The notes beneath the pieces are model-generated. The model saw only the letters and a list, made by a program, of their open reading frames with translations. It did no database searches and had not been told where the DNA came from. This document shows positions 24,755 through 47,131 of a DNA stretch of 64,000 nucleotides, piece after piece. The position numbers and the translations under genes were made by a program. How positions within the stretch are numbered: the stretch's first letter is position 1; each line of letters opens with the position of its first letter. Source of the stretch: Pleurocapsa sp. FMAR1 (GTDB taxonomy: Bacteria > Cyanobacteriota > Cyanobacteriia > Cyanobacteriales > Xenococcaceae); the NCBI RefSeq assembly GCF_963665995.1, contig NZ_OY762512.1:4526001-4590000 (forward strand), given 5' to 3'.

Positions 24755-27700
24755 CTAAAAAACAAGCAAATCGCTGTTATAAGCAACTTCAGCAATGCTA
24801 CTTTGAACGTCAAAGTTATTTGAGGAAAACAGATCTTGACCATAGTTTTCCAAAAAAGAACCAATTTGTTGTCCGTTGATTAGCATCCCATCCTTCAAAT
24901 TATCGATAATAATATCTTTTCCTGAGCTATCAACAATTGTGTTGTTACCGCCTCCTCCAAAAATAATATCTTTACCTGCGCCACCGTCGATAGTGTCGTT
25001 TCCTTCTCCACCAAAGAGCAAATCACTGCCGTTACCACCACAAATTAAGTCATCTCCCCCGTCCCCAAAAATAATATCTTTACCATCATTACCATTAAGA
25101 GAATCATGACCATCCTTGCCAAGAATTAAATCGTCTCCTCCTAAACCACTAATAAGATCGTTGCCATCTGTACCTATGAGAGTATCGTTACCCTCGGTTG
25201 CAGAATTGTCTACTACCTCTTGAACTTCATAAGCACCAATATCAGTACCGTTGCCGACAGTGCGATTAAAGCCTTCTCCCCGCTGATCGGTTTCTAGATT
25301 ATTAGGATTACTACCTGCATCAATTGCAGAACTACCATTTAGTAAAGCAAAAGTCTCAGTTGCACCGCCGTTATTTTGTAGTTCTCCTAATTGTGGATTG
25401 ATAGGGTTATCGAGAGTACCTACAATATCGCTATCAACAAAACCTGTGGCATCATCACCGTTGCTAATTAAATTATTGCCACCACTAGTAAACTTTCCAT
25501 TGCCAGATACATCTCCAATAGGAGTACTCTTAAGATTGCTGTTGCCGATAATACTACTAGTTACCGTAGCATTAGCATCATTGAAGTTAATCAAACCCCC
25601 TGCTCCTAAACCACCAGTATTGTTGGCTATAGTAGTGTTGGAAATCTCAGCCGTACCAGCATTCTCGATACCTGCGTTAGATCTGCCTTGGTTGTTGGCA
25701 ATTGTACTGTTGCTAACATTTACCGTGGCATCACTACGAACAATAATTCCTGATTGAGCTTGAACGGCTTGATTATTAGCAATTGTACTGCGTTCAATGT
25801 TAGTTGTTCCTGATTCAACCAAAATGCCGACATTACCACCGCCATTATTATCACTTATAGTAGAGTCGCTGATAGTGGTTGTGCCTCGACTAATAATCGC
25901 GCTATTGTCTGAAGAACCAGGACGGCTAATTGTATGACTAATAGTGCTGTCAGCCAGAGTTAAATTACCAGAGCTGTCAATTTTACCGCCAGTGAGATTT
26001 AAACCATCAATAGCAACATTAGTATCAGCATTAGCAATATCAAAGATAAAGCCACCGTCTAAAGTTAGATTATCTTGACCCAAACCGTCAATGGAAACCG
26101 AGTCACTGATATTTAGATCGCGCTCTTGAGATTCTGCCAAAGCAATTGTGCCACCGCTTAATCCTGAGTCAAAGATAATCGTATCTTTGCCTTCTTGTTT
26201 ATTGGATAATGCGATTGCTTCTCTTAAAGATAGATCTCCTGCGCTAAAATCCCCATCGTTTTCATCGACTAAGGTTGAGACAACTAGATCTGTAGGAGTT
26301 TGTCCACCATTACCATCTTGCACTTCATAAGCACCAATGTCAGTACCGTTGCCGACAGTACGGTTAAAGCCTTCTCCTCGCTGATCTGTTTCTAAGTTGT
26401 TAGGATTACTACCTGCATCAATAGCTGGAGAACCTTTTTGCAGTGCTTGAGTGGGAGTAGCACCACCATTGTTTTGTAATTCTCCGAGTTGTGGATCGAT
26501 GGAATTATCTGCTGTACCTACAATGTCGCTATCTTCAATATTAGCTAAACCTCCCACCTGACCAATATCCAGGGATGATGTAGCTTCGCCACCAATCAGG
26601 TTATTACCACCACTGATAATATCGTCTCCTTGTAGATCGCTATTATTAGAATTACCTGCAACTATAGTACTGACAAGTGTAGCTTCACCATTATTGTCAA
26701 TACCATCGCTATTACCACTAACAGTACTGTTACTAACAGTCAAATTTCCTTCATTACAGATTCCACCGCCAGGTGAACGCGCGTCAACATTATTATTGGC
26801 GATCGTGCTTTGAACGATCGTTGCCGTACCAGCGTTGGCAATTCCTCCACCAGGAGCACCACGACGTTGAGCAGAGTTATTATAGATAGCAGAGTTCTTA
26901 ACGGTTAGTGTACCTTCAGAGAAGATTCCTCCGCCCCTAAGATCGGCAGTATTATCACGGATAATAGCGTTGTTAATTTCTAAATTTTCCGTATTATATA
27001 TACCAGCACCAGATGGTTTATCAGTTCTACCTACAAAAGCACCACCTCCCGTGATGGTCAAGTCGTTAATCACAACTTGTGACTCAGCATCAGAATTATC
27101 ATTGATGTTAAAGACGCGAATACCATCAAAAAAATTGTCAGAACCGCCTCCATCAATAATGATGTTCTCTGCACCCAAACCATTAATAGTTAGGCTTTTA
27201 TCGATCGCCAATTCACCCTGGGTTAAGGTAATTGTGCCACCGCTTAGACTTTGATCGAAGGTAATAGTATTACCTAATTTAGCTTGCGCGATCGCTTCTC
27301 TTAAAGATAGATCGCCCGCGCTAAAATCTCCATCGTTCTCATCGACTAAGGTTGAAACAACTAAATCGATAGGAACTTCTCCGCCATCGTTTTCTTGAAC
27401 TTCAAAAGCACCAATATCAGGACTACTGCCTACTCTGCGTGGAAAACCCCCTCCTCGCTGATCTGTGCTTAAATTAGTCGGGTCGCTGCCTGCATCGAGC
27501 GCAGGAGAACCATCAAGTAGTGCCAGTGTTTCAGTTGAACCGCCGTTGTCTTGTAGTTCGCCTAGTTGTGGGTCGATTAATAACTCGGTTTGTGGGTTAC
27601 CAGGATCGTCACCGTTACTACCAACCAGATCGCCATTGACTCCATCGACAAAACCAGTAGCGTCATCGCCATTACTAATTAAGTTATTACCGCCACTGAT

Positions 27701-28513
27701 GAATTCACCATCACCAAAAATATCGCCAATAAAACCACCACCAGTATTATTAGCCAGGACGGTGCTGGTTACGGTGACTGTACCTGAAGAATTCTGGATG
27801 CCTCCACTACCCAAACCGCCATTATTATCGGTTATGGTACTGCTAAGAATATTAACTCTGTCACTACCACCAGCATTAGCAATACCGCCCACAAATCTGT
27901 TTTGATTGTTAACAATCGTGCTATTTCTAATGTTTACCGTATCGTCGGTAAGTATGAGAATTCCCGAACCGCCTAATACGCCCTCATTGTTAGCGATCGT
28001 ACTACGTTCGATGTTGGCTATTCCCGATTCAATCAAAATTCCAATGTTGTCACCACCACTATTATCTTTAATAGTAGAATCGCTAATAAATAGTGTTCCT
28101 CTACTTATAATCGAACTATTGTCCGAAGAACCCGAACGAGCAATGGTTTGACTAATAGCGCTATCGGTCAAACTTAAGTCGCCAAAGCTGTCTATTTTGC
28201 CTCCAACTAAGTTCAATCCATCAATTTCTAGATCGATATCTGATTCGGCAACGTCAAAGATAAAGCCACCGTTTAGAGTCAAGCTGTCTTGACCCAAGCC
28301 ATCGATCGTAACCGAATCATTTATATTTAAATCACGTTCTAAAGATTCATCGATCGCAATTGTGCCACCGCTTAAACTAGAGTCGAAAGAGATCGTGTCT
28401 TCACCTTCATTGTCATTAGCTCGTGCGATCGCTTCTCTTAAGGACAGATCACCCGCGCTAAAATCACCATCATTTTCATCGACTAAGGTTGAAACTATAA
28501 AATCTTGATTCAT
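24755..28513 (-). CDS. Secreted protein with three CSLREA modules and C-terminal RTX repeats
   Basis: The ATG at 28513 (MNQDFIVSTL) has GGAG 9-10 nt upstream, giving 1252 aa; an earlier in-frame TTG is unlikely. Three similar modules of about 350-380 residues begin near residues 5, 382 and 741, each with STLVDENDGDFSAGDLSLREAI (CSLREA-type), right-handed beta-helix-like turns (NSTIANN, ISDSTI) and a closing GSPAIDAGSNPNN...DIGAYEVQ segment. From about residue 1106 there are RTX nonapeptides (GGDD, GGEGNDTIDGGAGKD) that bind calcium. No signal peptide; secretion by a type I system through the C-terminus is inferred. Probably a surface or extracellular protein. Confidence 0.85.
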   Translation of the reverse strand: MNQDFIVSTLVDENDGDFSAGDLSLREAIARANDNEGEDTISFDSSLSGGTIAIDESLERDLNINDSVTIDGLGQDSLTLNGGFIFDVAESDIDLEIDGLNLVGGKIDSFGDLSLTDSAISQTIARSGSSDNSSIISRGTLFISDSTIKDNSGGDNIGILIESGIANIERSTIANNEGVLGGSGILILTDDTVNIRNSTIVNNQNRFVGGIANAGGSDRVNILSSTITDNNGGLGSGGIQNSSGTVTVTSTVLANNTGGGFIGDIFGDGEFISGGNNLISNGDDATGFVDGVNGDLVGSNGDDPGNPQTELLIDPQLGELQDNGGSTETLALLDGSPALDAGSDPTNLSTDQRGGGFPRRVGSSPDIGAFEVQENDGGEVPIDLVVSTLVDENDGDFSAGDLSLREAIAQAKLGNTITFDQSLSGGTITLTQGELAIDKSLTINGLGAENIIIDGGGSDNFFDGIRVFNINDNSDAESQVVINDLTITGGGAFVGRTDKPSGAGIYNTENLEINNAIIRDNTADLRGGGIFSEGTLTVKNSAIYNNSAQRRGAPGGGIANAGTATIVQSTIANNNVDARSPGGGICNEGNLTVSNSTVSGNSDGIDNNGEATLVSTIVAGNSNNSDLQGDDIISGGNNLIGGEATSSLDIGQVGGLANIEDSDIVGTADNSIDPQLGELQNNGGATPTQALQKGSPAIDAGSNPNNLETDQRGEGFNRTVGNGTDIGAYEVQDGNGGQTPTDLVVSTLVDENDGDFSAGDLSLREAIALSNKQEGKDTIIFDSGLSGGTIALAESQERDLNISDSVSIDGLGQDNLTLDGGFIFDIANADTNVAIDGLNLTGGKIDSSGNLTLADSTISHTISRPGSSDNSAIISRGTTTISDSTISDNNGGGNVGILVESGTTNIERSTIANNQAVQAQSGIIVRSDATVNVSNSTIANNQGRSNAGIENAGTAEISNTTIANNTGGLGAGGLINFNDANATVTSSIIGNSNLKSTPIGDVSGNGKFTSGGNNLISNGDDATGFVDSDIVGTLDNPINPQLGELQNNGGATETFALLNGSSAIDAGSNPNNLETDQRGEGFNRTVGNGTDIGAYEVQEVVDNSATEGNDTLIGTDGNDLISGLGGDDLILGKDGHDSLNGNDGKDIIFGDGGDDLICGGNGSDLLFGGEGNDTIDGGAGKDIIFGGGGNNTIVDSSGKDIIIDNLKDGMLINGQQIGSFLENYGQDLFSSNNFDVQSSIAEVAYNSDLLVF

Positions 28514-28802
28514 GGCTTTTATTCTCCAAAAATTCAACAGTAAACTTGCCTATTGAAGTATCAATAGAGCAAGGAAAAGTAATCGAACTCACTAAATAGC
28601 AAATAGAAACGGCATTATTATTTGTTCCCTATGCTATCAATTTAAGCGTAATTCGATTGTAGCGCAAACTAATCTTAAAGACATGAAGTTTTAATGAAGT
28701 ACAATTTGATTTATCAAGTTTTGATGAAGCATTAGAGAAGGAAAAGTTATATGCTGAAAGTTGTCGAGATAATAATTATGTGCAGCTCTGCCACTATTCA
28801 TA

Positions 28803-33536: not shown

Positions 33537-33971
33537 ATGACCACAATTGTTAAGCATAGAAGAACAGGAAATGAGTATATTTTGTTGGGCATAAATGGGG
33601 AAGTTGATAAAGTTAATCCGTCTCGTTTTATTAGTGAACTATTTGCCCAAGAAAAATCCAAATCTGAGGTATCCTGTTCAGCAACGGTTTGTGATGTTCA
33701 AGGGAATATCTTCTTGACTTATATTGACGATTTGACTGTTGTGGAAATAGACGGCAATAAGCCAGCAGATCTACTGCCAGAGCCTACTTTTAAGTCAGTT
33801 GATAATGATGTATATCAGCAGCAAACAGATGATTTTGATGATGAAGATTTAGAAGCAGAAAACTTTGATAACCCTGAAGATACATCGGCACAAACCCCAA
33901 TATCTTCTACCTACAGTCAAAGTTCATCTCAACAAAGCGATCTTGATAATGACGATGAGGATTGGATCTAA
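33537..33971 (+). CDS. Conserved hypothetical protein with acidic tail, 144 aa
   Basis: The first ~85 residues form a compact beta-rich domain (TTIVKHRRTGNEYILLGINGE, VQGNIFLTYIDDLTVVEIDG). The last ~50 residues are strongly acidic and serine-rich (DDFDDEDLEAENFD, SDLDNDDEDWI), like a flexible partner-binding tail. I do not recognise the family; similar proteins occur in cyanobacteria. It is the last native gene before the disturbed dynamin region. Confidence 0.65.
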   Translation: MTTIVKHRRTGNEYILLGINGEVDKVNPSRFISELFAQEKSKSEVSCSATVCDVQGNIFLTYIDDLTVVEIDGNKPADLLPEPTFKSVDNDVYQQQTDDFDDEDLEAENFDNPEDTSAQTPISSTYSQSSSQQSDLDNDDEDWI

Positions 33972-34296: not shown

Positions 34297-34617
34297 ATGA
34301 CAACAGAAATTAACGGTATTTTTGAGCAAGTTCGCGATCGCTTGAAACAATTAGGCAACGGTATTGCTGACTTGGCTCAAAATCACGCAGATATTTTAGA
34401 GAGTCCGAATATTCAAGATTCTTTATCAAAGTTTAGACAGGCTTACGAAGAATCAGTAACTAGATTAGCCAATCCTAATTTTACTATTGCAACTATTGGT
34501 ACAATTTCTTCGGGCAAATCAACCATTGTTAATGCTCTAATTGGACGTAAAATTGCCCCTATTGAAGCAGGAGAAATGAGTGGGGGAATACTAACTATTA
34601 GGCATCTGGTTGACTGA
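34297..34617 (+). pseudogene. Dynamin-like GTPase, 5' fragment, interrupted by IS
   Basis: Native coding sequence runs from ATG 34297 to 34605 (103 codons, ending LTIRH); the remaining codons to the stop at 34615-34617 belong to the IS end. It contains the N-terminal helical neck and the GTPase P-loop GTISSGKST (residues 68-76), followed by a G2-like AGEMSGGILT. The continuation of the gene is at 37193-39307. The reading frame is restored exactly if the IS and one 9-bp target copy are removed (ATT AGG CAT TCC AAA, Ile-Arg-His-Ser-Lys), giving an ancestral protein of 807 aa. Confidence 0.9.
34597..34605. repeat. 9-bp target-site duplication, left copy
   Basis: ATTAGGCAT, repeated at 37184-37192 immediately outside the other end of the IS. 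Confidence 0.92.
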
Positions 34618-34962
34618 CAAAAGATGAAGAGAAAAACCTGAGAATAGAGATTCAGTAAAGAGTTGAGGGATTGACACAAAGCAAGGGGAGTCAGCACTCT
34701 GAGATTAGATACCACTCATAATTTCAGAATACTGTGAATCAAAACTCCCGTCTCTACAATGCCTTGAATCAATGGATGAGTCAATAGAAGTTTGAAGACA
34801 GAAGTATGAAGGCGCGAAGTTTCAAGTTTGTTCGAGGGCTTGTACCTCATACGAAGTTTGAAGTTTGAAGTTTGAAGGAAGAAGGAAGAATTCGGAATTC
34901 GGGAAGGATTTTTTGTAGCTCATACCTCACACCTCATACTTCGCGCCTTCATACCTCATACA

Positions 34963-35035
34963 CAGGGCTATCGCCCAGATCGTCCGTCCTTCGGACGACT
35001 TCGATGCTTCGCATCGTGTAGGGCGAAGCCCTGGT
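34963..35035. repeat. 73-bp nested palindrome, copy A
   Basis: An outer stem pairs CAGGGC..TCGCCC with GGGCGAAGCCCTG; inner hairpins are GTCC..TTCGGAC and CGATGCTTCGCATCG. Identical or nearly identical copies are at 35339-35411, 36145-36217 and 36521-36593. Confidence 0.8.
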
Positions 35036-35088
35036 ACCTCTACCAAACTAAGAGCGATCGTGAACGACGGGGCTTGCAACTATAGTGG

Positions 35089-35115
35089 AACAAAGGACTT
35101 GTCCGCATGTAGGAG
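35089..35115 (+). repeat. Interspersed repeat R2, copy 3
   Basis: AACAAAGGACTTGTCCGCAT followed by GTAGGAG, part of the hairpin-rich element copy 1. Confidence 0.7.
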
Positions 35116-35338
35116 GAAGTAGCTGTTTACGAAGTTTGAAGGAAGAAGTTTGAAGGAAGAAGGAAGAAAGATTTTTTGTACCTCATACGAAGGAAGAAGT
35201 AGCTGTTTTACTTCATACTTCATACCTCATACTTCATACTTCATGCAGCTGTTTTACTTCATACACGGACTCTCTGTCCGTCGCCGTTCCCGAGGAGACG
35301 TCGGAACGCAGAGAGCGTTCACCTCACACTTCGCGCCA

Positions 35339-35411
35339 CAGGGCTATCGCCCAGATCGTCCGTCCTTCGGACGACTTCGATGCTTCGCATCGTGTAGGGC
35401 GAAGCCCTGGT
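35339..35411. repeat. 73-bp nested palindrome, copy B
   Basis: Same sequence as copy A; it forms the right-hand end of element copy 1. Confidence 0.8.
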
Positions 35412-36144
35412 CAAGCTACTGACTGGTTACATTTATGTCATCTTCAAACTTGTATTTGGATGATAATTGCTTTAATACACACGGGCAATGTCAACCTGAC
35501 AAAATGGTCGATGTACATCCCTGGTCGAGGGAAGTTGGCTGGGGGTAGACAGAGACGTATTCAGCGTTGGCTAAACAATCCTCGAATCAATGTCCATCGA
35601 ATCAGAAAGTCCTTGGTCAAAGCAGCACTTGATGATTGGTCAGAATCAAAAATATTTTTGGCATTAGACACTTCACTGTTCTGGGATGAGTATTGCCTTG
35701 TGCGGCTTTGGGTTATTCATCGAGGGAGAGCTTTACCGTTGGTGTGGAGAGTGATGAACCATGAAAGTGCTAGTATTTCAGTTACCGATTATCGAGAGAT
35801 GATTAAGCAGGCACAAGTTAGGCTACGAGAATCAGTTAAGGTAATTTTACTCGCGGAGCGAGGATTTATACATACCGAATTGATGACCATGCTGACAACT
35901 CAACTAGGATGGCATTATCGTCTCCGAATTAAGAGTAATACCTGGATTTGGCGTGGAAGTTGGTGTCAACAGAAGTTTGAAGACAGAAGTATGAAGGCGC
36001 GAAGTTTCAAGTTTGTTCGAGGGCTTGTACCTCATACGAAGGAAGAAGTTTGAAGTTTGAAGGAAGAAGGAATTCGGAATTCGGGAAGGATTTTTTGTAG
36101 CTCATACCTCACACCTCATACTTCGCGCCTTCATACCTCATACA

Positions 36145-36217
36145 CAGGGCTATCGCCCAGATCGTCCGTCCTTCGGACGACTTCGATGCTTCGCATCGTG
36201 TAGGGCGAAGCCCTGGT
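36145..36217. repeat. 73-bp nested palindrome, copy C
   Basis: Same sequence as copy A, in the left half of element copy 2. Confidence 0.8.
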
Positions 36218-36270
36218 ACCTCTACCAAACTAAGAGCGATCGTGAACGACGGGGCTTGCAACTATAGTGG

Positions 36271-36297
36271 AACAAAGGACTTGTCCGCATGTAGGAG
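36271..36297 (+). repeat. Interspersed repeat R2, copy 4
   Basis: Same as copy 3, within element copy 2. Confidence 0.7.
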
Positions 36298-36520
36298 GAA
36301 GTAGCTGTTTACGAAGTTTGAAGGAAGAAGTTTGAAGGAAGAAGGAAGAAAGATTTTTTGTACCTCATACGAAGGAAGAAGTAGCTGTTTTACTTCATAC
36401 TTCATACCTCATACTTCATACTTCATGCAGCTGTTTTACTTCATACACGGACTCTCTGTCCGTCGCCGTTCCCGAGGAGACGTCGGAACGCAGAGAGCGT
36501 TCACCTCACACTTCGCGCCA

Positions 36521-36593
36521 CAGGGCTATCGCCCAGATCGTCCGTCCTTCGGACGACTTCGATGCTTCGCATCGTGTAGGGCGAAGCCCTGGT
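36521..36593. repeat. 73-bp nested palindrome, copy D
   Basis: Same sequence as copy B, at the right end of element copy 2. Confidence 0.8.
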
Positions 36594-37159
36594 CAACCTA
36601 AAAACTTTCACTTTCATTTAGCAGAGGCAATTTGCTTACACAACGTACAGATTCACAAAGGTGAATTTTCTGGCAAAGTTCATGTGATTCTTGGTCGCAA
36701 CAACGTTAACGGCGAACTATGGGCAATTGTCAGTAATGAAAAAACTACTCTACAAACCTTTGCTGAATATGGATTACGTTTTGATATCGAAGCGAATTTT
36801 TTAGATGACCAATCTGGTGGTTGGAATGTTCAACGCTCGATGATTCGAGATGTATGCGCTTTGTCCCGTTTGTGGTTTATCTTATCTGTGGCTACTCTCT
36901 ACGTTAGTGCCCAAGGTGTTGAGGTAGTTCGTATTGGCAAACGAAGATGGGTTGATACTCATTGGTTTCGTGGTAATAGCTATTTTAGGATTGGTTGGGA
37001 TTGGGTCAAAGCTGCACTCATTAATGGTTGGAATTTACTTCATTGCGTGACTTTCTCTAGTAATCAAGATCCCTCACCTGCAATGGCATCACGATCGCAA
37101 TATCAAAAACGAGCAGATCAGTTGGAGTTCAAAGTTTTAACTTATTCCTACAATATTTC

Positions 37160-39307
37160 TTGAAAGTTTTGTCAGTCAATCAGATTAGGCATTCCAAAGA
37201 GTTCAAATTATTAATAGAAGAAACAGAGGGAGCGCAATGGTTAGCGGGAGAGTGGAATAATATAGGTGAAAAGGAAATATACGCTCGTATTCGTAACGGG
37301 GTGATGTTTCCCTATCATCAAGCTCGACAAAAACAAGAATTGATTGCGCCACAAGTTACGGCTTATGTGCCGATTTTACCAGCCGAAGATTCTAGTTTAT
37401 TAGGCTTACCCAAAGGGATAGGTATTGAATTTATCGATCTACCAGGATTAAAGTCGATTCAAGATCGAGACAATCTTAAGGTTATTCAACAACAGGTTCA
37501 TAAAGCTTTTAGTTTAGTTGCCTTAGATTATTTACAAGTTGACGACCGCCATCGTAAGTGTCTGTTAGAAGAATTGAAAAAAGTAGTCGAGTATTTACAA
37601 GGACGTACTGACTCGATGATATTTATTTTAAATCGAGTAGATTCAAGGGGACAAGACGATATTACGCTCGCCGAAAGAATTGAACAATTGCAGTTAGAGA
37701 TACAGGCAACTTTAAACTTAGATCGTTTACCTGACATTATTCCCTTAAGCGGCAGATTTCTTTATTATGCTCAGTGTGCTTGGGGAACAAATGCTAACAG
37801 CAGCAATTCTGCTGTAGATGCTGCTACTCGCCGTCATTACTTAAGCGGAATGCTTAAAGATTGTTCTAATTTGATTCACTCTCATGTTTGCGAAGATAAA
37901 ACGTTAAAAAAGCGGTTTAGAGATATAGAAGATCGGGTGGGTAATGGCGAAACTATCGATGACGAAACTATGCGAAAAATTCTCTATCACGTCAATGATT
38001 GGAGTGGTGGCGATCGCCTTTGGAAGTGTATGCGCGATCGCGTCCAAGAGTCTTTTTCAGAATTGGTTATATTACCCGCACTATTCGATGTCCTCGAAAG
38101 CTACAGGTTGTTAGTCAACACAATCGATGTAGAAGTCAACATCAAAAAGATTGGTAAGAAAGAAGAACTAAAAAGCAAACAGCAAAACATTATCGATGGT
38201 AGCGAAAGACTAGCCAGAGAGGTTGAAAATATCCGCGATCGGTTTCAGCAAGAAATAAGAACAATTATCAACCTGCTAAAACAAGATAGTCAAAGCGATC
38301 GCAACAATCTCGATCAAATGGGTATTGAAAGCTTTGATTCTTTTTACGATACTGTCAGACAAGTTGAAGAAGATTTAGTAGTAGAACTCATTTTCCCTGT
38401 GACAAATGCTTTTGAACAAGATAAAGGAACTTACGAACTAGAAGAAGAATTAACTGAAGTTATTACTCCCCCTAAAGCTAAAGCGATCGCCAAAGCTTAT
38501 GACTTAGTTAATCGTAAATTGAATGAATTTAAGCTAGATGATTCTGGTTATTTTATTAGACAAGTTCGCCACGACGATAAAGAAGAATTGCGTAGTACGG
38601 AACACGCTGAAAAAGCGATTCGTTCCCTCTACTATGCAATGCGTAAAGCCATTACCACTAGAGCAGAATTTACTTTACAAGGACAAACTAAACAATTTGA
38701 AACAGGACTGTTATCGTTGGTCAATAAATTAATTAAAGAACTAAAAATTGCTTGTGAGCAAGAACTTCCCGCTCTCGATCTCGATAAAGTAATCATCTCT
38801 GATTTTGAAAATCATATTGCTCAAAATCCGCCTCAATTACCAAAAGAACTATTTAACTTCTCAGATACTATTAAACAAAATACTACCAGCAAACGGGAAG
38901 TAGTAGGCAAGAAAAAAGAAACCCAACATTACACAGAAGGTAGTTGTTTTAAGCAGGAAAAAACTAGAACTGTTACTAAAAATGTCTATGAAGATATTGA
39001 GTATCAAGAATTAAAGCTACCAGATTACAAAAATATGGCGCGACAATGGGCAGAGGGAATTACCCAAGAAAAGCAAAAACTTTGGGATATTCTTGATCGT
39101 TGGATTAGTAATTATTTGGAGCAAATCGTTAAAGAGTGCGATCGCGCTATCGATAAGGCAACTAAGTCTACAGAACGAGCTTTTGATAAACAATTACAAG
39201 AGATTGAAAAAGATGGGGTTAAGCAAGAAGAATATTGGCAGCAATTTGAAAGAGAACTAAATGCTGTTACAGAAACTCATCAGCAATTACAACAGGAGTC
39301 TACCTAA
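37160..39307 (+). pseudogene. Dynamin-like GTPase, 3' fragment
   Basis: The open frame begins in the IS end; native sequence starts at 37184 (target duplicate) and contributes 704 residues after the 5' part. It holds the G3 motif in IEFIDLPGLKSI (DLPG at ancestral residues 185-188) and the G4 motif NRVD (250-253). Long helical, partly coiled-coil regions follow, as in bacterial dynamin-like proteins, and Gln/Glu-rich helices close it (KQLQEIEKDGVKQEEYWQQF). Dynamin-like proteins remodel membranes, and some bacterial ones act against phages. Without the P-loop half this fragment should not bind GTP. The next gene begins 2 bp after the stop. Confidence 0.88.
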
Positions 39308-39309
39308 AG

Positions 39310-40203
39310 ATGAATCCTATTAATCGCCAAAATCCATTGACTCTTATAGATGAATTCATTCAAAGTTTAGACGAACTTGCAGGAAATGAAAATAATCGAG
39401 ATCTAAATTGTGCTATTGATTCTTGGTGTAGGGAACTGTCTATTAATCAACACTTTCCTCAAGCATCTACAGAAATAATCAAAAATAAGAATCAATGGAT
39501 ACAAGATAATCGAATTTATCGCGAATTTCTGCCACTGTACCAAAATCTTCTAGTAACAACAGATAAAAAAATAATGGGAGGAATAGGAAATTCGTTTAAC
39601 AGGCTGAAGAATATTTCCAATAAAGACTTTTATCACAATGTTCAGGAGACTAAAGAAGAAATGAATGTTAAATCAATCGTATTAATTGCATTTGTACTCA
39701 CAGGAATAGGTTTATTACTTTATTTATTCAATAAAAAAGAAGATAGCAATAAATCTCAATATAATAATCAGTTAAATAATGATTTAGCTTATCAACCTTC
39801 GGTTGAAGAAAAGCAGGTCTTAGCTTTGTTAATTAAAAGCGATCGCTATCAAGAGTTAATTCATTCCTTAAACAAAAACAATGAGAAATTCTGGCAAACA
39901 GAAGATGCTTCTAAACTATATGGCGCAACTCAAGGTTTATGGATTGGAGCAAAAAGTAAGTTCGATCAGTCGAGAATCAAGCAAAAACTAAACAATTGCA
40001 ATCCAGTTACCTCTACATCTGAATACGATGTTCATTTTGTCAAAATAGAACTAGATAAAAACGATTCTAGATTCCATTCTGATGTTAATCCAATGGATCG
40101 TCGGGATGCTTTTATGGAATTAGGAAATAAGTCGCCTCAAATCACAGTCTCTCCTAGATTGTCATGTAAAGCTTATGAAAATACAGAGTTTTACAGTCGC
40201 TAA
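39310..40203 (+). CDS. Dynamin-operon protein with single membrane helix, 297 aa
   Basis: I do not recognise this family. The first ~115 residues are soluble and helical, one membrane helix lies at about residues 121-140 (KSIVLIAFVLTGIGLLLYLF), and a ~155-residue domain follows with short beta/loop segments. It starts 2 bp after the GTPase stop, which implies translational coupling, so it probably works with that GTPase at a membrane. The IS upstream may reduce its expression unless the IS provides outward transcription. No frameshift or stop interrupts it. Confidence 0.75.
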   Translation: MNPINRQNPLTLIDEFIQSLDELAGNENNRDLNCAIDSWCRELSINQHFPQASTEIIKNKNQWIQDNRIYREFLPLYQNLLVTTDKKIMGGIGNSFNRLKNISNKDFYHNVQETKEEMNVKSIVLIAFVLTGIGLLLYLFNKKEDSNKSQYNNQLNNDLAYQPSVEEKQVLALLIKSDRYQELIHSLNKNNEKFWQTEDASKLYGATQGLWIGAKSKFDQSRIKQKLNNCNPVTSTSEYDVHFVKIELDKNDSRFHSDVNPMDRRDAFMELGNKSPQITVSPRLSCKAYENTEFYSR

Positions 40204-40218
40204 TTTGAGATAATTCCT

Positions 40219-41451
40219 ATGATTATTAATCCTACTTTTTTAATTAAAGACCCTGCAATAATTCAAGGTTTAATTAATGCTACGATGACACGACATGGTG
40301 GTGTAATTAGGGAGGCTGCAACGGGTCAAATTGTCCGTCACTTAGTAGAATCTCCCGCACTAACGAGTAATTTAATGACTTTTGCTGCAAACCCATTATT
40401 AGGCGCAGTAAAAGTTGTTTCGGATACTGCTGGTCACGGTATTACTATTCACAAGCTGAATCAAGTCCAACAAATGCTGTCTCCTATATTAGGATTATCT
40501 CAGATAGCAGCAGGTGCTAGCGTACTTAATGTCGGTATTAGCCTCGCTGGGTTTGCTTATATGGGTTATAAACTCAATCAAATCCAAACTTCCTTGGGTA
40601 AAATGCAGCAGTCAATGGAAGCTGGTTTTAAAAATATTGACGAACGTTTTGATGTCTTATCTGGACAATTAGCATACCTGCATTTATTAGTGCAAGCAAA
40701 TCGTCAAGGACAAATTCATCTCGCGGATGCGATTAATCAACTTCATCGGACAATTCTAATTAAAGAAATAGCCGAACTACGCGCCGAATTAATAGCGAAA
40801 GATCGCTTCCCAGATACATCCATTCAATCTGCTTTAAAAGTTGCTTCTAAAGTTCGGATGATAATGTCTGACCAAGTATTACAAATCACCCCTGAATTAG
40901 AACCTCAGAAGATGCTGTTAGCCGATGTTGCTACTCAAGGATGGGCGGTAGCTACAGCGACCGAAGCATATTTATTATTAGAAGTTGGGATGTTTGAGGA
41001 AGCACAAGAATTACTCAGTTTAGAAGTTCCCAAATTCAAACAAAATGCCGAACAATGGACAGACAACTTGTTAAATACTGAACGTCCCGAACTAAACACA
41101 GGTTATCGATTTACAGCACCAGTATTCAAACAGCACATTAGTCCAGAGAGAGTAGAGAGAATCGTTAATGTTTCTTCAGGCGATCGCAATTTATCTCTAG
41201 AGAAAAAACAAGAAAAGCAGGATGATATTGCTGTTGAGTTTCAGATGTCCTATACTTCACAGTATGATCGCAGTTGGATTTATCAGCAAGTAGCAGTAGC
41301 AGAATATCTAGATGCTTTTAGCGAATTATCTGCCAGATTAGAAACCTTACAAAATTTTGCTACCCTGTGCCAAGAAACTGGAGTCAAAAGTAGTCTTGAG
41401 CTACTATCGAGTGAACAAGAAGAGAATACTTGGTATACACTACCTTGTTGA
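40219..41451 (+). CDS. Dynamin-operon protein with hydrophobic hairpin, 410 aa
   Basis: Unrecognised family. Residues ~85-118 are apolar and glycine-rich (ILGLSQIAAGASVLNVGISLAGFAYMGYKLNQIQ), like a membrane-inserting hairpin. A coiled-coil stretch (SLGKMQQSMEAGFKNIDERFDVLSGQLAYLHLLVQ) and helical repeats with ELRAELIAKDRF and LLLEVGMFEEAQELL follow. The layout recalls pore-forming or membrane-perturbing effectors, but that is only a resemblance. It begins 15 bp after the preceding gene and completes a three-gene operon with the dynamin-like GTPase. It is intact. Confidence 0.75.
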   Translation: MIINPTFLIKDPAIIQGLINATMTRHGGVIREAATGQIVRHLVESPALTSNLMTFAANPLLGAVKVVSDTAGHGITIHKLNQVQQMLSPILGLSQIAAGASVLNVGISLAGFAYMGYKLNQIQTSLGKMQQSMEAGFKNIDERFDVLSGQLAYLHLLVQANRQGQIHLADAINQLHRTILIKEIAELRAELIAKDRFPDTSIQSALKVASKVRMIMSDQVLQITPELEPQKMLLADVATQGWAVATATEAYLLLEVGMFEEAQELLSLEVPKFKQNAEQWTDNLLNTERPELNTGYRFTAPVFKQHISPERVERIVNVSSGDRNLSLEKKQEKQDDIAVEFQMSYTSQYDRSWIYQQVAVAEYLDAFSELSARLETLQNFATLCQETGVKSSLELLSSEQEENTWYTLPC

Positions 41452-41564
41452 GCAAAAAAAATAAGATCGAGTCAATACTGTTAGTTTTTACAGACTTTAA
41501 AGCTGATTAGCCATAAATATCATCATTGGTGGAAAGTCCTTTTAGACTGACACGTTAGTGGAAG

Positions 41565-41636
41565 TGGGCGATACTGGACTTGAACCAGTGACGTCCTGCT
41601 TGTAAGGCAGGCGCTCTACCACTGAGCTAATCGCCC
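41565..41636 (-). tRNA. tRNA-Val (anticodon TAC)
   Basis: Read on the minus strand, the 7-bp acceptor arms GGGCGAT/ATCGCCC pair perfectly. The D-arm is GCTCAGTGGTAGAGC. The anticodon stem CCTGC/GCAGG encloses CTTACAA, so the anticodon is TAC. The T-arm is ACTGGTTCAAGTCCAGT, and the discriminator is A. Total length 72 nt; CCA is not encoded. Confidence 0.96.
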
Positions 41637-41804: not shown

Positions 41805-42986
41805 TTAAAAAGGAATTTCTAGACCAATTTTAGATTTAAAACTGCCATCTTGTTGAAGATCGGCATTTAAACCAATCGAACCCAATTTTGTCTGGGCTTT
41901 CCAGAAAGCACTGCCACCAGTAAAAGCAGTTTCTCGATCAACATTAGCTTTAACTCCCAGCAAACCCAAAGCTGTTTTAGCTGCAATTTTAATACTGCCA
42001 CCAGCAAAAGTAGTATCATCATCAAACTCTCCACTTACTCCAACTCCAATATCAGAACCCAATAAACGATTTGTATTCCAAGAAGCATTGCCACCATTAA
42101 ATCTAGATTGCTCATCAATTTTGACATTGGCAGTTAAAGAGCCAATCAAGGTATTGGTAGCAACATTAACGTTACCGCCAGCAAAGGTAGTATGGTTAAA
42201 TTTACCCTTGACTGCTAGTGAACCTAACTTGGTTTTGGCATTCCAGGCAGCGTTTGCACCGCTAAATTGAGTTTGATCGTTAAAGTTGCTTTGTACTGCT
42301 AGTGAACCTAACTTGGTTTTGGCATTCCAAGCAGCGTTTGCACCGCTAAATTGAGTTCGATTATTAAAGTTGCTCTGTACTGCTATTGAACCTAACTTGG
42401 TTTTGGCATTCCAGGCAGCGTTTGCACCGCTAAATTGAGTTCGAGCGTTAAAGTTGCTTTGTACTGCCAACGAACCTAATTTGGTCTTAGTCTGCCAAGC
42501 AACAGTACTTTTAATCGGTTTAATTTGATTACTAATATTGATAGCTAAATTTATTGAGCCTAAATCTGTTTTAGTTTGCCAAAAAGCTTTGCCTTTTCTT
42601 AAATTTGCTTGAGAATCAAAATTGCCGTCGAATTTCAAAGAACCAATCTTGGTATCTGTTTTCCAAGATGCTACACCAGATTTAAAAGCAGATGCTCGAT
42701 CCTCAGAAAAATCATCCTGAACTTCATTTAAATCAATACTATTTTTATTTACAGTGAAAGTACTGACGGCAGCAGGGAAAGTATTGTTTGCCTTTTTTTC
42801 AGCATTCAATACATAATTAGAAGATATTTTGCTAGTTCCTAAAATTTTAGCAGCCGAAAAAAGCTCTAAATTGCCTCGCATTACTTTGTTGTTAGTTGAT
42901 GATTGTTTAAAATCACTTGGAAGTACAATTGGCTCTAAAAAATTGATCGATGTGACTAAAAACATCCCTGCTGCGGTTAACCACAT
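41805..42986 (-). CDS. Secreted tandem-repeat protein (28-residue units), 393 aa
   Basis: A hydrophobic N-terminus (MWLTAAGMFLVTSINFLEP) looks like a signal peptide. From about residue 105 to the end the protein is a series of ~28-residue units of the form FSGANAAWNAKTKLGSLAVQ, then SNFNDRTQ, alternating short strands with Gly/Asn turns. Three central units are nearly identical in DNA (84-bp period). Such units could stack as a beta-solenoid or long fibre on the cell surface. No known adhesin family is recognised. The units diverge toward both ends. Confidence 0.7.
   Translation of the reverse strand: MWLTAAGMFLVTSINFLEPIVLPSDFKQSSTNNKVMRGNLELFSAAKILGTSKISSNYVLNAEKKANNTFPAAVSTFTVNKNSIDLNEVQDDFSEDRASAFKSGVASWKTDTKIGSLKFDGNFDSQANLRKGKAFWQTKTDLGSINLAINISNQIKPIKSTVAWQTKTKLGSLAVQSNFNARTQFSGANAAWNAKTKLGSIAVQSNFNNRTQFSGANAAWNAKTKLGSLAVQSNFNDQTQFSGANAAWNAKTKLGSLAVKGKFNHTTFAGGNVNVATNTLIGSLTANVKIDEQSRFNGGNASWNTNRLLGSDIGVGVSGEFDDDTTFAGGSIKIAAKTALGLLGVKANVDRETAFTGGSAFWKAQTKLGSIGLNADLQQDGSFKSKIGLEIPF
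42221..42472. repeat. 84-bp tandem coding repeat, three units
   Basis: The word AACCTAACTTGGTTTTGGCA recurs at 42221, 42305 and 42389, and a close variant at 42473, exactly 84 bp apart. It encodes the 28-residue units of the surrounding protein. Confidence 0.85.
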
Positions 42987-45154: not shown

Positions 45155-47131
45155 TCAAAACCTTAACTGTAAATTGAGTTTGAAATATAGTTTATTATTA
45201 CTTTCCATAATTATCTTGCCATATCTATGTCTAGTCGTAGAAGGAGTATCTAGTTTAATATTATTAAACAAGTATGACTTTAAACTTTCTATATCTATAA
45301 TATGGAATGCAACTTGATCGCCAGATTGTTTAACTACTATAATTCCATTAGCTTCGTAAGTACCATCCCATTTGCTACCTGCAAAAAATCCTAATAAAAC
45401 ATCTACCAAAAGCTTCTTAACTTTACTAACCAGAAAAATTTTATCTTCATACTTTATTTGCTCGATTAAATCAGTATTATTATGAATATAATCAATAATA
45501 TCTGAGATAGAATTTTTTCTATGTTTGTAAAAAGTAAGTAAAATACTACCGATAATTTCGGGCATCAAAGAGTCAACCATTTTCAAGTTATATTCCATAG
45601 TTTTCTTTTCTGGAGCAACATATTTAAATATTCCTCCATATTGTTCAATCAACTTAATACGATCTGTTAATTTAGTTCTAGTATCAATAGCATTTATTTC
45701 ATCTACTTTATCTTTAGCTAGATTTTTGATTTCAAATATAAAATTGGTATTTCCCGAAGCATTGAGCAAGGTTGGTTTACTTCCCAAATAAGACTTTATA
45801 CCAAAGCCTTCATTCTCTTTTGCTAAAATGTTATTTTGAATATTTAAAATAATATCAGCTTTTTGAAAGCTGGTTCCACCTTTAACAATAGTCAAACCTA
45901 AAATATCTTGAATAACTTGAAAGTCACCAATTATAAAAGTACCTTTTCCTGCTTTGATTTTAGCAACCAAACTTTTTATTGTATTACTATTTATTAGTTC
46001 GTTTATCTCAACTATTTTAATTGTATTATTATCTTTATTTAATACTTCTATTTGATTTTTGTTTTTTAATAAAAACTCTAAGTTAATATTTTGACCAGTG
46101 ACTTTTGTGACTCGAAAATAATCACCCGTAGGATTAAGATTTTCATCTGATAGTAAAATTTGTTGCTCTGCTAAAATTTTGACAAAGGTTAATAGTTCTG
46201 ACCATTCCCCTTTATTTTTAGTTTTTTTCATTGTTATTTTTTTACTATCTAAAGTGTTCATGTAGGCAATAATGTTTCTACCAACAGCTTTCACTGCATT
46301 AACTGCTACGCTATTACCTAATTGCTTGATAGCCTGGGTAGGACTTACTGGAAATTCAAAATTATCGGGAAATCCCTGCATTTTCTTTGCTTGAATATAA
46401 GTTAGTTGCCTAACTTCTCCGTTAACCAAATACGAATCCCAGTTACGACGATCATTAATATTTGAACCACGACCACCAACTCTCAAAGTAAACCCTATTT
46501 CACGACTACAAACCCCGCCCCAAACATCACTCATGTTAAATCTTAAGGGTAGTTTTTCAGGAAAATTAAATCCTTTGAAAAAATTTTCATCGCGAAATCC
46601 TACCATAAATATTCTTGGTCTTAATTGGGGTAAACCATAATCTGATGCTTTGACAACCTGATAATAGAATGAGTAGTCTAAATCTAGTTCTAAGATTTCT
46701 CGAATTACTTTAAAAGTTTTACCTTGGTCATGATTGACTAAACCTCTAACATTTTCTAAAAAAAAAGCTTTTGGTCGCTTAACTTTTATAATGTCGGCAA
46801 TATTAAAAAACAAGTTACCTCGTTCTGAGTTATGAAAGTCATTAAATCCTCTTTTATAACCTGCTTGACTAAAAGGTTGGCAAGGAAAACCTGCACATAA
46901 TAAATCAAAATCTGGAATTTCGTCGGCAACAATATGTCTTATGTCACTATTAAAAAGATCTTCTTGAAATAATTGAGGAGAAATATTTTTGAAGTTATGA
47001 ATATATGTTTTTCTCGCATATGAATCAATTTCCGAAGCAAAAATGCATTTTCCCCCAAGCTCATGCATTGCCAGGTGAAATCCGCCAATTCCTGCAAATA
47101 GGTCAATGAATGTAAATCTTTTTTGCTCCAT
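45155..47131 (-). CDS. Single-chain cytosine-5 methyltransferase fused to HpaII-type restriction endonuclease
   Basis: A 658-aa protein. Residues 1-295 are a C5-cytosine DNA methyltransferase: motif I DLFAGIGGFHLAM, the catalytic Cys in CAGFPCQPFSQAG, ENVRGL, RPRIFMVGFR, a short recognition region (GGRGSNINDRRNWDSY) and the closing QLGNSVAVNAV. From about residue 300 (MKKTKNKGEWSELLTFVKIL) the second half resembles R.HpaII: GFGIKSYLGSKPTLLNASGNTNF is a hallmark, and the total length of ~355 residues also fits. Both activities would thus be on one chain, probably with a CCGG-like target (inference). It starts 30 bp after ychJ on the same strand. The base composition is AT-rich, unlike its neighbours. 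Confidence 0.88.
   Translation of the reverse strand: MEQKRFTFIDLFAGIGGFHLAMHELGGKCIFASEIDSYARKTYIHNFKNISPQLFQEDLFNSDIRHIVADEIPDFDLLCAGFPCQPFSQAGYKRGFNDFHNSERGNLFFNIADIIKVKRPKAFFLENVRGLVNHDQGKTFKVIREILELDLDYSFYYQVVKASDYGLPQLRPRIFMVGFRDENFFKGFNFPEKLPLRFNMSDVWGGVCSREIGFTLRVGGRGSNINDRRNWDSYLVNGEVRQLTYIQAKKMQGFPDNFEFPVSPTQAIKQLGNSVAVNAVKAVGRNIIAYMNTLDSKKITMKKTKNKGEWSELLTFVKILAEQQILLSDENLNPTGDYFRVTKVTGQNINLEFLLKNKNQIEVLNKDNNTIKIVEINELINSNTIKSLVAKIKAGKGTFIIGDFQVIQDILGLTIVKGGTSFQKADIILNIQNNILAKENEGFGIKSYLGSKPTLLNASGNTNFIFEIKNLAKDKVDEINAIDTRTKLTDRIKLIEQYGGIFKYVAPEKKTMEYNLKMVDSLMPEIIGSILLTFYKHRKNSISDIIDYIHNNTDLIEQIKYEDKIFLVSKVKKLLVDVLLGFFAGSKWDGTYEANGIIVVKQSGDQVAFHIIDIESLKSYLFNNIKLDTPSTTRHRYGKIIMESNNKLYFKLNLQLRF

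Follow-up and report, generated by a model that had tools for sequence, protein, structure and literature searches.

A three-gene unit of a dynamin-family GTPase and a JukB-like protein as a candidate mobile phage defence system in cyanobacteria

A stretch of 64,000 nucleotides (nt) from the cyanobacterium Pleurocapsa sp. FMAR1 (contig NZ_OY762512.1, positions 4,526,001 to 4,590,000; here the window), whose genome is a single contig of 5.43 megabases, carries on its plus strand three consecutive genes. In order, they encode a dynamin-like GTPase (A), a protein of 297 amino acids (aa) with one predicted membrane helix (B) and a 410-aa candidate effector (C), and we refer to them as A-B-C. The unit is probably a phage defence system that has not been described before. 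More specifically, A-B-C may be a mobile anti-phage system that kills the cell or blocks infection by breaking a membrane, a reading to which we give an even chance of being right. The combination is new and the kinds of parts are known: a dynamin-linked defence with a JukB-type effector. No account of such a unit was found among the papers listed in searches of a mostly open-access literature on bacterial dynamins, on Juk and on BREX with dynamin. A first-pass annotation of this DNA had already suspected a role in defence. That suspicion now draws support, at the level of sequence comparison, from the homology of C to JukB, from lipase domains on some C proteins and from BREX and Hma-like neighbours.

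The A-B-C unit and its three proteins

The three genes are separated by 2 base pairs (bp; A to B) and 15 bp (B to C), as the first-pass annotation had it when it called them an operon. Their arrangement was followed through 96 distinct loci, of which 20 were chosen by C or its N-terminal module in relatives and 80 were found by A in genome contigs, with four duplicates merged. Genes of the A family, B or C are held by 51 of these loci, and in 35 of the 96 all three stand in order on one strand; in 30 of the 35, A is a single frame not shorter than 780 aa and C has 360 aa or more. B, which had no separate search of its own, is present in 39 of the 51 and adjoins A in each. Because 20 loci had been chosen by C, those found by A alone give the fairer figure: 24 of 37 such A-family loci are A-B-C, and 6 are cut off by a contig end just after A. 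The other seven comprise one A-C locus, one decayed locus, three with A-B and no C, one B-A locus that is cut off and one without both partners. In the remaining 43 loci from the search with A the resemblance is weaker and lies mainly in the GTPase domain, and the B and C profiles found nothing there.

The partners also keep company with the GTPase at the level of whole genomes, a check that the first-pass annotation had proposed. Among 386 cyanobacterial genomes from across the phylum (with score thresholds of 490 bits for A and 250 bits for C), A occurs in 16, C in 16 and both in 15, so that 15 of 16 are paired in either direction. Fewer than one shared genome would be expected by chance (16 x 16 / 386), with the caveat that related genomes are not independent. 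The two odd genomes look like they hold remnants: G066 has only a piece of C with three stops, and in G313 what follows A is a short fragment of C. Whole C was not found widely without a GTPase, a pattern that the first-pass annotation had named as one that would refute its reading; only its N-terminal module turns up elsewhere, in stand-alone JukB-like proteins. Pairwise distances across 31 loci are correlated between A and B (0.83), A and C (0.88) and B and C (0.68), values that none of 2000 permutations reached, which argues that the genes travel together.

A is, by its motifs and profile matches, a dynamin-type GTPase. The Pfam Dynamin_N model scores 51.6, 55.5 and 54.5 bits in loci L023, L033 and L040 (cut-off 27 bits; E 1.5e-13 in the intact relative L023), and the first piece of the window's interrupted A reaches 33.3 bits by itself. 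The motifs GTISSGKST, DLPG and NRVD, previously read off the window, are indeed there and are kept with small changes in 14 aligned relatives: all 14 have the P-loop as GTTSSGKST together with DLPG, and 13 have the G4 motif NR(V/I)D, which is NKCD in L040. Intact copies in the same genus measure 803 aa (L023) and 807 aa (L024), in keeping with the 807 aa earlier proposed for the ancestral protein. A also matches, in its GTPase region, the PADLOC LeoA and LeoBC models (E 1.5e-5 to 8e-12), which we take to represent Eleos. Profile searches against solved structures returned mainly G-domain matches, plus coiled-coil ones. As a separate observation, the weaker A relatives at L118, L121, L133, L150 and L153 lie near at least one further dynamin-like GTPase downstream, and no B or C was found there.

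B (39310-40203, plus strand) begins with helices in a variable N-terminal part and ends in a conserved domain (about residues 165-297) with the signature SEYDV..V.IEL....DAF....VSPRL. Between them lies the single membrane helix noticed at first pass, at residues 122-140 with a mean hydropathy of 2.55; a hydropathy of 1.6 is passed by 31 of 43 B homologues, four duplicate contigs being counted twice. An AlphaFold model of B has a mean confidence (pLDDT) of 84.9, with block means of 90-97 over most of residues 171-297 and one block at 74. Window B has no match over cut-off in Pfam, PADLOC or NCBIfam, and its profile gave only chance-level matches to solved structures.

C (40219-41451, plus strand) falls into two parts. 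Residues 1-140 (40219-40638) form a JukB-like module that includes a hydrophobic stretch, IAAGASVLNVGISLAGFAY, at residues 96-114. The PADLOC JukB model matches residues 10-134 with an E-value of 3.6e-7 (1.1e-13 in a plasmid copy), and this match to the first part of window C is its sole one over cut-off in Pfam, PADLOC and NCBIfam. Residues 150-410 (40666-41448) form a helical domain that, among the samples searched, turned up with A or in remnants. The module is shared with a stand-alone JukB-like family of about 400-480 aa that is scattered in cyanobacteria (L039, L041, L168-L171, L173-L177 and L179-L181) and has a relative in the window genome itself, at G000:C1:2492407. All 14 members match the JukB model (best E 4.2e-20), and hhalign relates the family to C at 99.8% (E 1.5e-29) over nearly the whole length. 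No conserved neighbour that might be a JukA was seen when the stand-alone loci were inspected by eye, and these proteins are possibly single-gene defence proteins. Profiles of both families gave chance-level matches to solved structures.

Four C proteins carry an additional N-terminal Lipase_3 domain (L040, E 1.2e-31; L083, 4e-29; L094, 3.6e-28; L098, 1e-25), and all four keep the GHSLGG motif with its adjoining residues. In three of them a JukB-like module, complete or shortened, follows the lipase; the C of L040 has lost the hydrophobic stretch and is no longer recognised by the JukB-like profile. The lipase-bearing loci stand in two places of the A tree, where supported branches force only one origin. 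(In that tree L078, L085 and L097 are labelled 'C' although their contigs end before C, and L085 and L089 are two contigs from one organism that may be one gene.) The lipase on C reads as an effector exchange, as far as domain composition can tell. From a constant C-terminal half joined to changing, membrane-active N-termini, we infer that C is an effector controlled by A and B.

Mobility and genomic neighbourhoods

The unit moves between sites. None of the 14 genes that flank it in the window was found (E 1e-5) in the 12-18 kilobase (kb) unit-bearing stretches of seven loci, four with intact copies and three with decayed ones, from six relatives. All 13 genomes of the genus have the gene that is the upstream neighbour in the window (33537-33971), and in the other 12 A was not found beside it, one locus (L189) being uninformative as its contig ends. 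A-B-C is an insert next to a genus-wide neighbour, and in this sense the earlier suggestion of an accessory island holds. No tRNA was found in any of the 13 loci around the upstream gene, and insertion was therefore judged by the absence of A. Two of those 12 genomes hold A-B-C elsewhere: about 650 kb away in G008 and 18.5 kb away on the same contig in G002, the latter a local displacement and not a distant one. C is present at E < 1e-200 in 4 of the 13 genomes. In G012 there are two copies, both decayed and with deletions inside them. The transposon-end-like repeats that were also thought to mark an island could not be confirmed beyond chance, the pair nearest the region ends being 25 nt at 84%.

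Copies are likewise found on or near transmissible elements. A complete A-B-C lies on the conjugative plasmid pTCL26-01_C of Nostoc sp. TCL26-01, the sole match in 72,556 plasmid records, where the record calls the products a 'dynamin family protein' and, for the other two, hypothetical proteins. In Nostoc calcicola a copy of the lipase type adjoins a relaxase. On the plasmid, HmaC-, HmaB- and HmaA-like genes follow 560 bp after the unit (1.8e-97, 2.3e-72 and 2.6e-54); the HmaA-like gene is a helicase that other models match better. Nearby are a VapC toxin gene with its partner, ArdA and ParM-type genes.

Two further copies are associated with BREX. In the genome G016 a pglX-like gene (1149 aa, with an NPPY-type motif), pglZ and brxL are followed after 393 bp, on the same strand, by A-B-C; the BrxL (3.8e-133) and PglZ (1.9e-62) matches are the only such matches in that genome. 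Pieces upstream are presumably brxA-, brxB- and brxC-like, named by size, order and P-loop. In Nodosilinea sp. LEGE 07298 the order is a pglX-like end, A-B-C with A in two frames, pglZ and brxL (PglZ 1.3e-10, BrxL 3.8e-119), with pglZ beginning 12 bp after C; the pglX-like end matches its G016 counterpart at 27% (E 3e-10). The BREX calls are based on BrxL and PglZ, on gene order and on a protein that has the size of PglX and an NPPY-type motif; with the BrxC/BrxD Pfam model, neither G016 nor the genome of L103 gave a match. Reading gene lists brought up the BREX and Hma neighbours, which were then tested singly, so that their count is not blind. None of the BREX and Hma query genes was found in 20 control stretches.

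Proposed function and competing explanations

The gene unit, its mobility, its domain relations and its context suggest a scheme in which the sensing of infection, the order of events and the target membrane are conjectural. A would bind GTP and assemble on a membrane disturbed by the incoming phage, or on a phage-made vesicle. B would anchor the complex to the membrane and link A to C. Assembly would then release C, whose N-terminal module would insert into and perforate the membrane, or whose lipase, in the proteins that bear one, would digest it. The outcome would be the end of the infection or of the infected cell. Tentatively, one may see here a previously undescribed class of bacterial immunity in which one dynamin-family GTPase both senses infection and controls interchangeable effectors that break membranes (a JukB-like perforator, or one with an added lipase). 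Such a class, placed at least twice beside or inside BREX operons, would be a bacterial counterpart of the dynamin-family GTPases in the cell-autonomous immunity of animals.

Four known arrangements come closest. C resembles JukB in its N-terminal part, where the PADLOC model matches, and a membrane-active effector, in A-B-C a candidate one, is common to the unit and Juk. A review (PMC13282480) describes JukB as forming tetrameric pores on the vesicle of early phage infection and names phospholipases among the other effectors of Juk. However, JukA was not found in the unit, its place is taken by a dynamin GTPase together with a membrane-anchored protein, and the JukB model leaves the second half of C uncovered; the A and B proteins of the window, L023 and the plasmid did not match the JukA models at E limits of 1, 0.1 or 1e-5. 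For this reason we ruled out Juk itself. The LeoA and LeoBC matches of A link it to Eleos/LeoABC, which is described with two dynamins, LeoA and LeoBC (PMC4159319, available text), whereas A-B-C has one dynamin and two proteins that do not match dynamins. No second dynamin was found by the A profile in the flanks of the 35 A-B-C loci, apart from a 363-aa A-like piece in L029, and Eleos/Leo was ruled out on that ground. DynA of Bacillus subtilis is a bacterial dynamin with a measured anti-phage effect, described in the accessible part of PMC8844932 as delayed lysis, with no B- or C-like partner named there; A-B-C, in contrast, has a candidate membrane-breaking effector. Finally, the GTPase-centred conflict systems of Kaur et al. 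2020 (PMC7159879) are similar in combining an NTP-dependent switch with effectors that can be exchanged, including a pore-forming domain and an alpha/beta-hydrolase, and are reported mainly from multicellular prokaryotes. They use other GTPases, and dynamin and lipase go unmentioned in the main text.

A number of results weigh against a membrane-breaking defence system. The similarity of C to JukB is confined to the first half of that protein. The solved JukB was not matched in sequence by the profiles of C or of the stand-alone family, or by two single JukB-like proteins. The hydrophobic segment that the first-pass annotation saw in C fared less well than the membrane helix of B: it is present, and it is weaker, with a mean hydropathy of 1.54 in the window; only 6 of 39 C homologues reach 1.6 anywhere, most lying below the usual threshold for a membrane helix. 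C is a candidate membrane pore-former. In L040 the second half of C weakly resembles a type II restriction enzyme model (E 4.6e-4). B is without a recognisable fold relative, as Foldseek gave no match to its model at E 0.001 or better. No C turned up in 50,697 phage records or, by a pattern scan, in viral contigs. Even the association with defence genes is sparse: there are 36 A-B-C contexts (35 loci and the plasmid), neighbours were read in 30, and 27 of the 30 show mostly ordinary genes by eye and no BREX or Hma-type neighbours, which leaves 3. The BREX and Hma query genes match none of the other A-B-C loci in the set. A PADLOC scan at E 1e-15 matched 56 versus 8 families among 143 neighbour and 143 control proteins, the neighbours coming from 30 loci (29 A-B-C, one A-C) out of 168 candidates and the controls from 20 hand-picked stretches; the 25 families among the matches listed were mostly models of a type that we take to be Ser/Thr kinases, with 3 members each, so that the excess counts for neither side.

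The A-B pairs without C, from Ruminiclostridium, Oscillospiraceae and Competibacteraceae loci, count on the same side, because they mean that C is not obligatory. They suggest that A and B may be the core and that the third part varies. In the Ruminiclostridium and Oscillospiraceae pairs (L106, 6521-7921; L109, 644-1459) a gene without a Pfam match lies directly upstream of A and is a candidate for another exchanged effector. Structure searches with the model of C (pLDDT 62.8), which also speak against the proposal, returned nothing at E 0.001 or better, with 9jht reached only at E 1.0; weak Foldseek rows for the B and C models (PII, ClyA, Hbl and 9jht) were set aside and not used as evidence.

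The most serious competitor is that A-B-C maintains membranes, with the GTPase and its two membrane partners mending or reshaping, when the cell is under stress, its cytoplasmic or thylakoid membrane. According to PMC5827413 and PMC9950537, dynamins are very common among cyanobacteria, where they are considered in connection with membrane dynamics, ordinary genes make up most of the neighbours read, and purifying selection on all three genes fits as well, with ratios of nonsynonymous to synonymous substitution (dN/dS) of about 0.11-0.21 for A and C and 0.27-0.50 for B. However, presence in 16 of 386 genomes, and by C in 4 of 13 within the genus, is patchy and fits poorly with housekeeping. The differing sites in close relatives, the plasmid copy, the several decayed copies, the lipase-bearing C proteins and the BREX and Hma neighbours also tell against it, and we regard maintenance as unlikely.

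It is also improbable, in our judgement, that C acts in the manner of JukB on a phage-made early infection vesicle and not on the host membrane, so that the cell survives, with A sensing or reshaping the vesicle. Dynamins act on curved membranes and C is related to JukB, both of which suit this possibility. So does the statement in PMC13282480 that the target of JukB is the vesicle which nucleus-forming jumbo phages make early in infection. Against it stands that no JukA was found in the unit. Finally, the copy on a conjugative plasmid with ArdA, ParM-type and VapC genes nearby and the copy beside a relaxase in Nostoc calcicola would suit a conflict or addiction module directed at plasmids, other elements or neighbouring cells, which we nevertheless rate as a poor prospect, since the BREX association is what phage defence would lead one to expect, and the neighbour lists read show no fourth gene that returns beside the unit, other than among close relatives, and none recognised by eye as a delivery gene.

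Bacterial dynamins have been linked to phage resistance. Should A-B-C prove to be a membrane-breaking defence system, the company that a dynamin keeps here, lipases and a family of effectors of which one member is known to break membranes, would point directly to a mechanism. A further implication would be that the JukB-type module serves as a common membrane weapon behind more than one kind of sensor. For annotators, the unit offers something recognisable behind dynamin family and hypothetical labels.

The interrupted copy in the window and its surroundings

In the window itself, A is interrupted by an insertion sequence (IS), as had been noticed at first pass. The first 103 codons, with the P-loop, occupy 34297-34605 on the plus strand and are 89% and 86% identical to residues 1-103 of the intact L023 and L024 proteins; the open reading frame (ORF) reads on into the IS and stops at 34617. 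The IS spans about 34606-37184 (about 2.6 kb) and has imperfect inverted ends (95% over 19 nt). On either side lies a copy of the 8-bp target repeat TTAGGCAT, read from the sequence at 34598-34605 and 37185-37192. The remainder of A, with DLPG, NRVD and the C-terminal part, follows at 37185-39307 on the plus strand; the downstream ORF as listed begins within the IS at 37160 and is without the P-loop. With its GTPase gene cut, the system should be off in this genome.

The frames of B and C are open in the window copy. The part of A after the IS has a dN/dS of 0.14-0.19 against relatives, compared with 0.15-0.21 for intact A pairs among themselves; the corresponding values are 0.11-0.15 and 0.12-0.19 for C, and 0.29-0.34 and 0.27-0.50 for B. 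By these ratios, A, B and C are all under purifying selection. Since the A remnant has a ratio about equal to that of intact pairs, the insertion looks recent.

The IS has a weak DDE-type transposase match within 35460-36053 and a further ORF at 36684-37163. It carries two near-identical repeat elements of about 630 bp (34780-35411 and 35965-36593). One of them divides the transposase, and the IS thus seems to be defunct as well.

Downstream of the unit, a tRNA-Val (tac) lies 112 bp beyond C on the minus strand (41564-41636), where the first-pass annotation had seen it. Beside it, at 41805-42986 on the minus strand, is a 393-aa protein that contains repeated 'WNAKTKLGSLAVQSNF' units and has no Pfam match at E 0.01. 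Outside the unit, 3.7 kb downstream, one ORF of about 658 aa (45155-47131, minus strand) encodes a restriction-modification protein that fuses a C5 cytosine methylase to an HpaII-type endonuclease (Pfam 8.8e-76 and 1.8e-97). On the other side, 24755-28537 on the minus strand encodes a 1260-aa protein with a beta-helix and RTX calcium-binding repeats.

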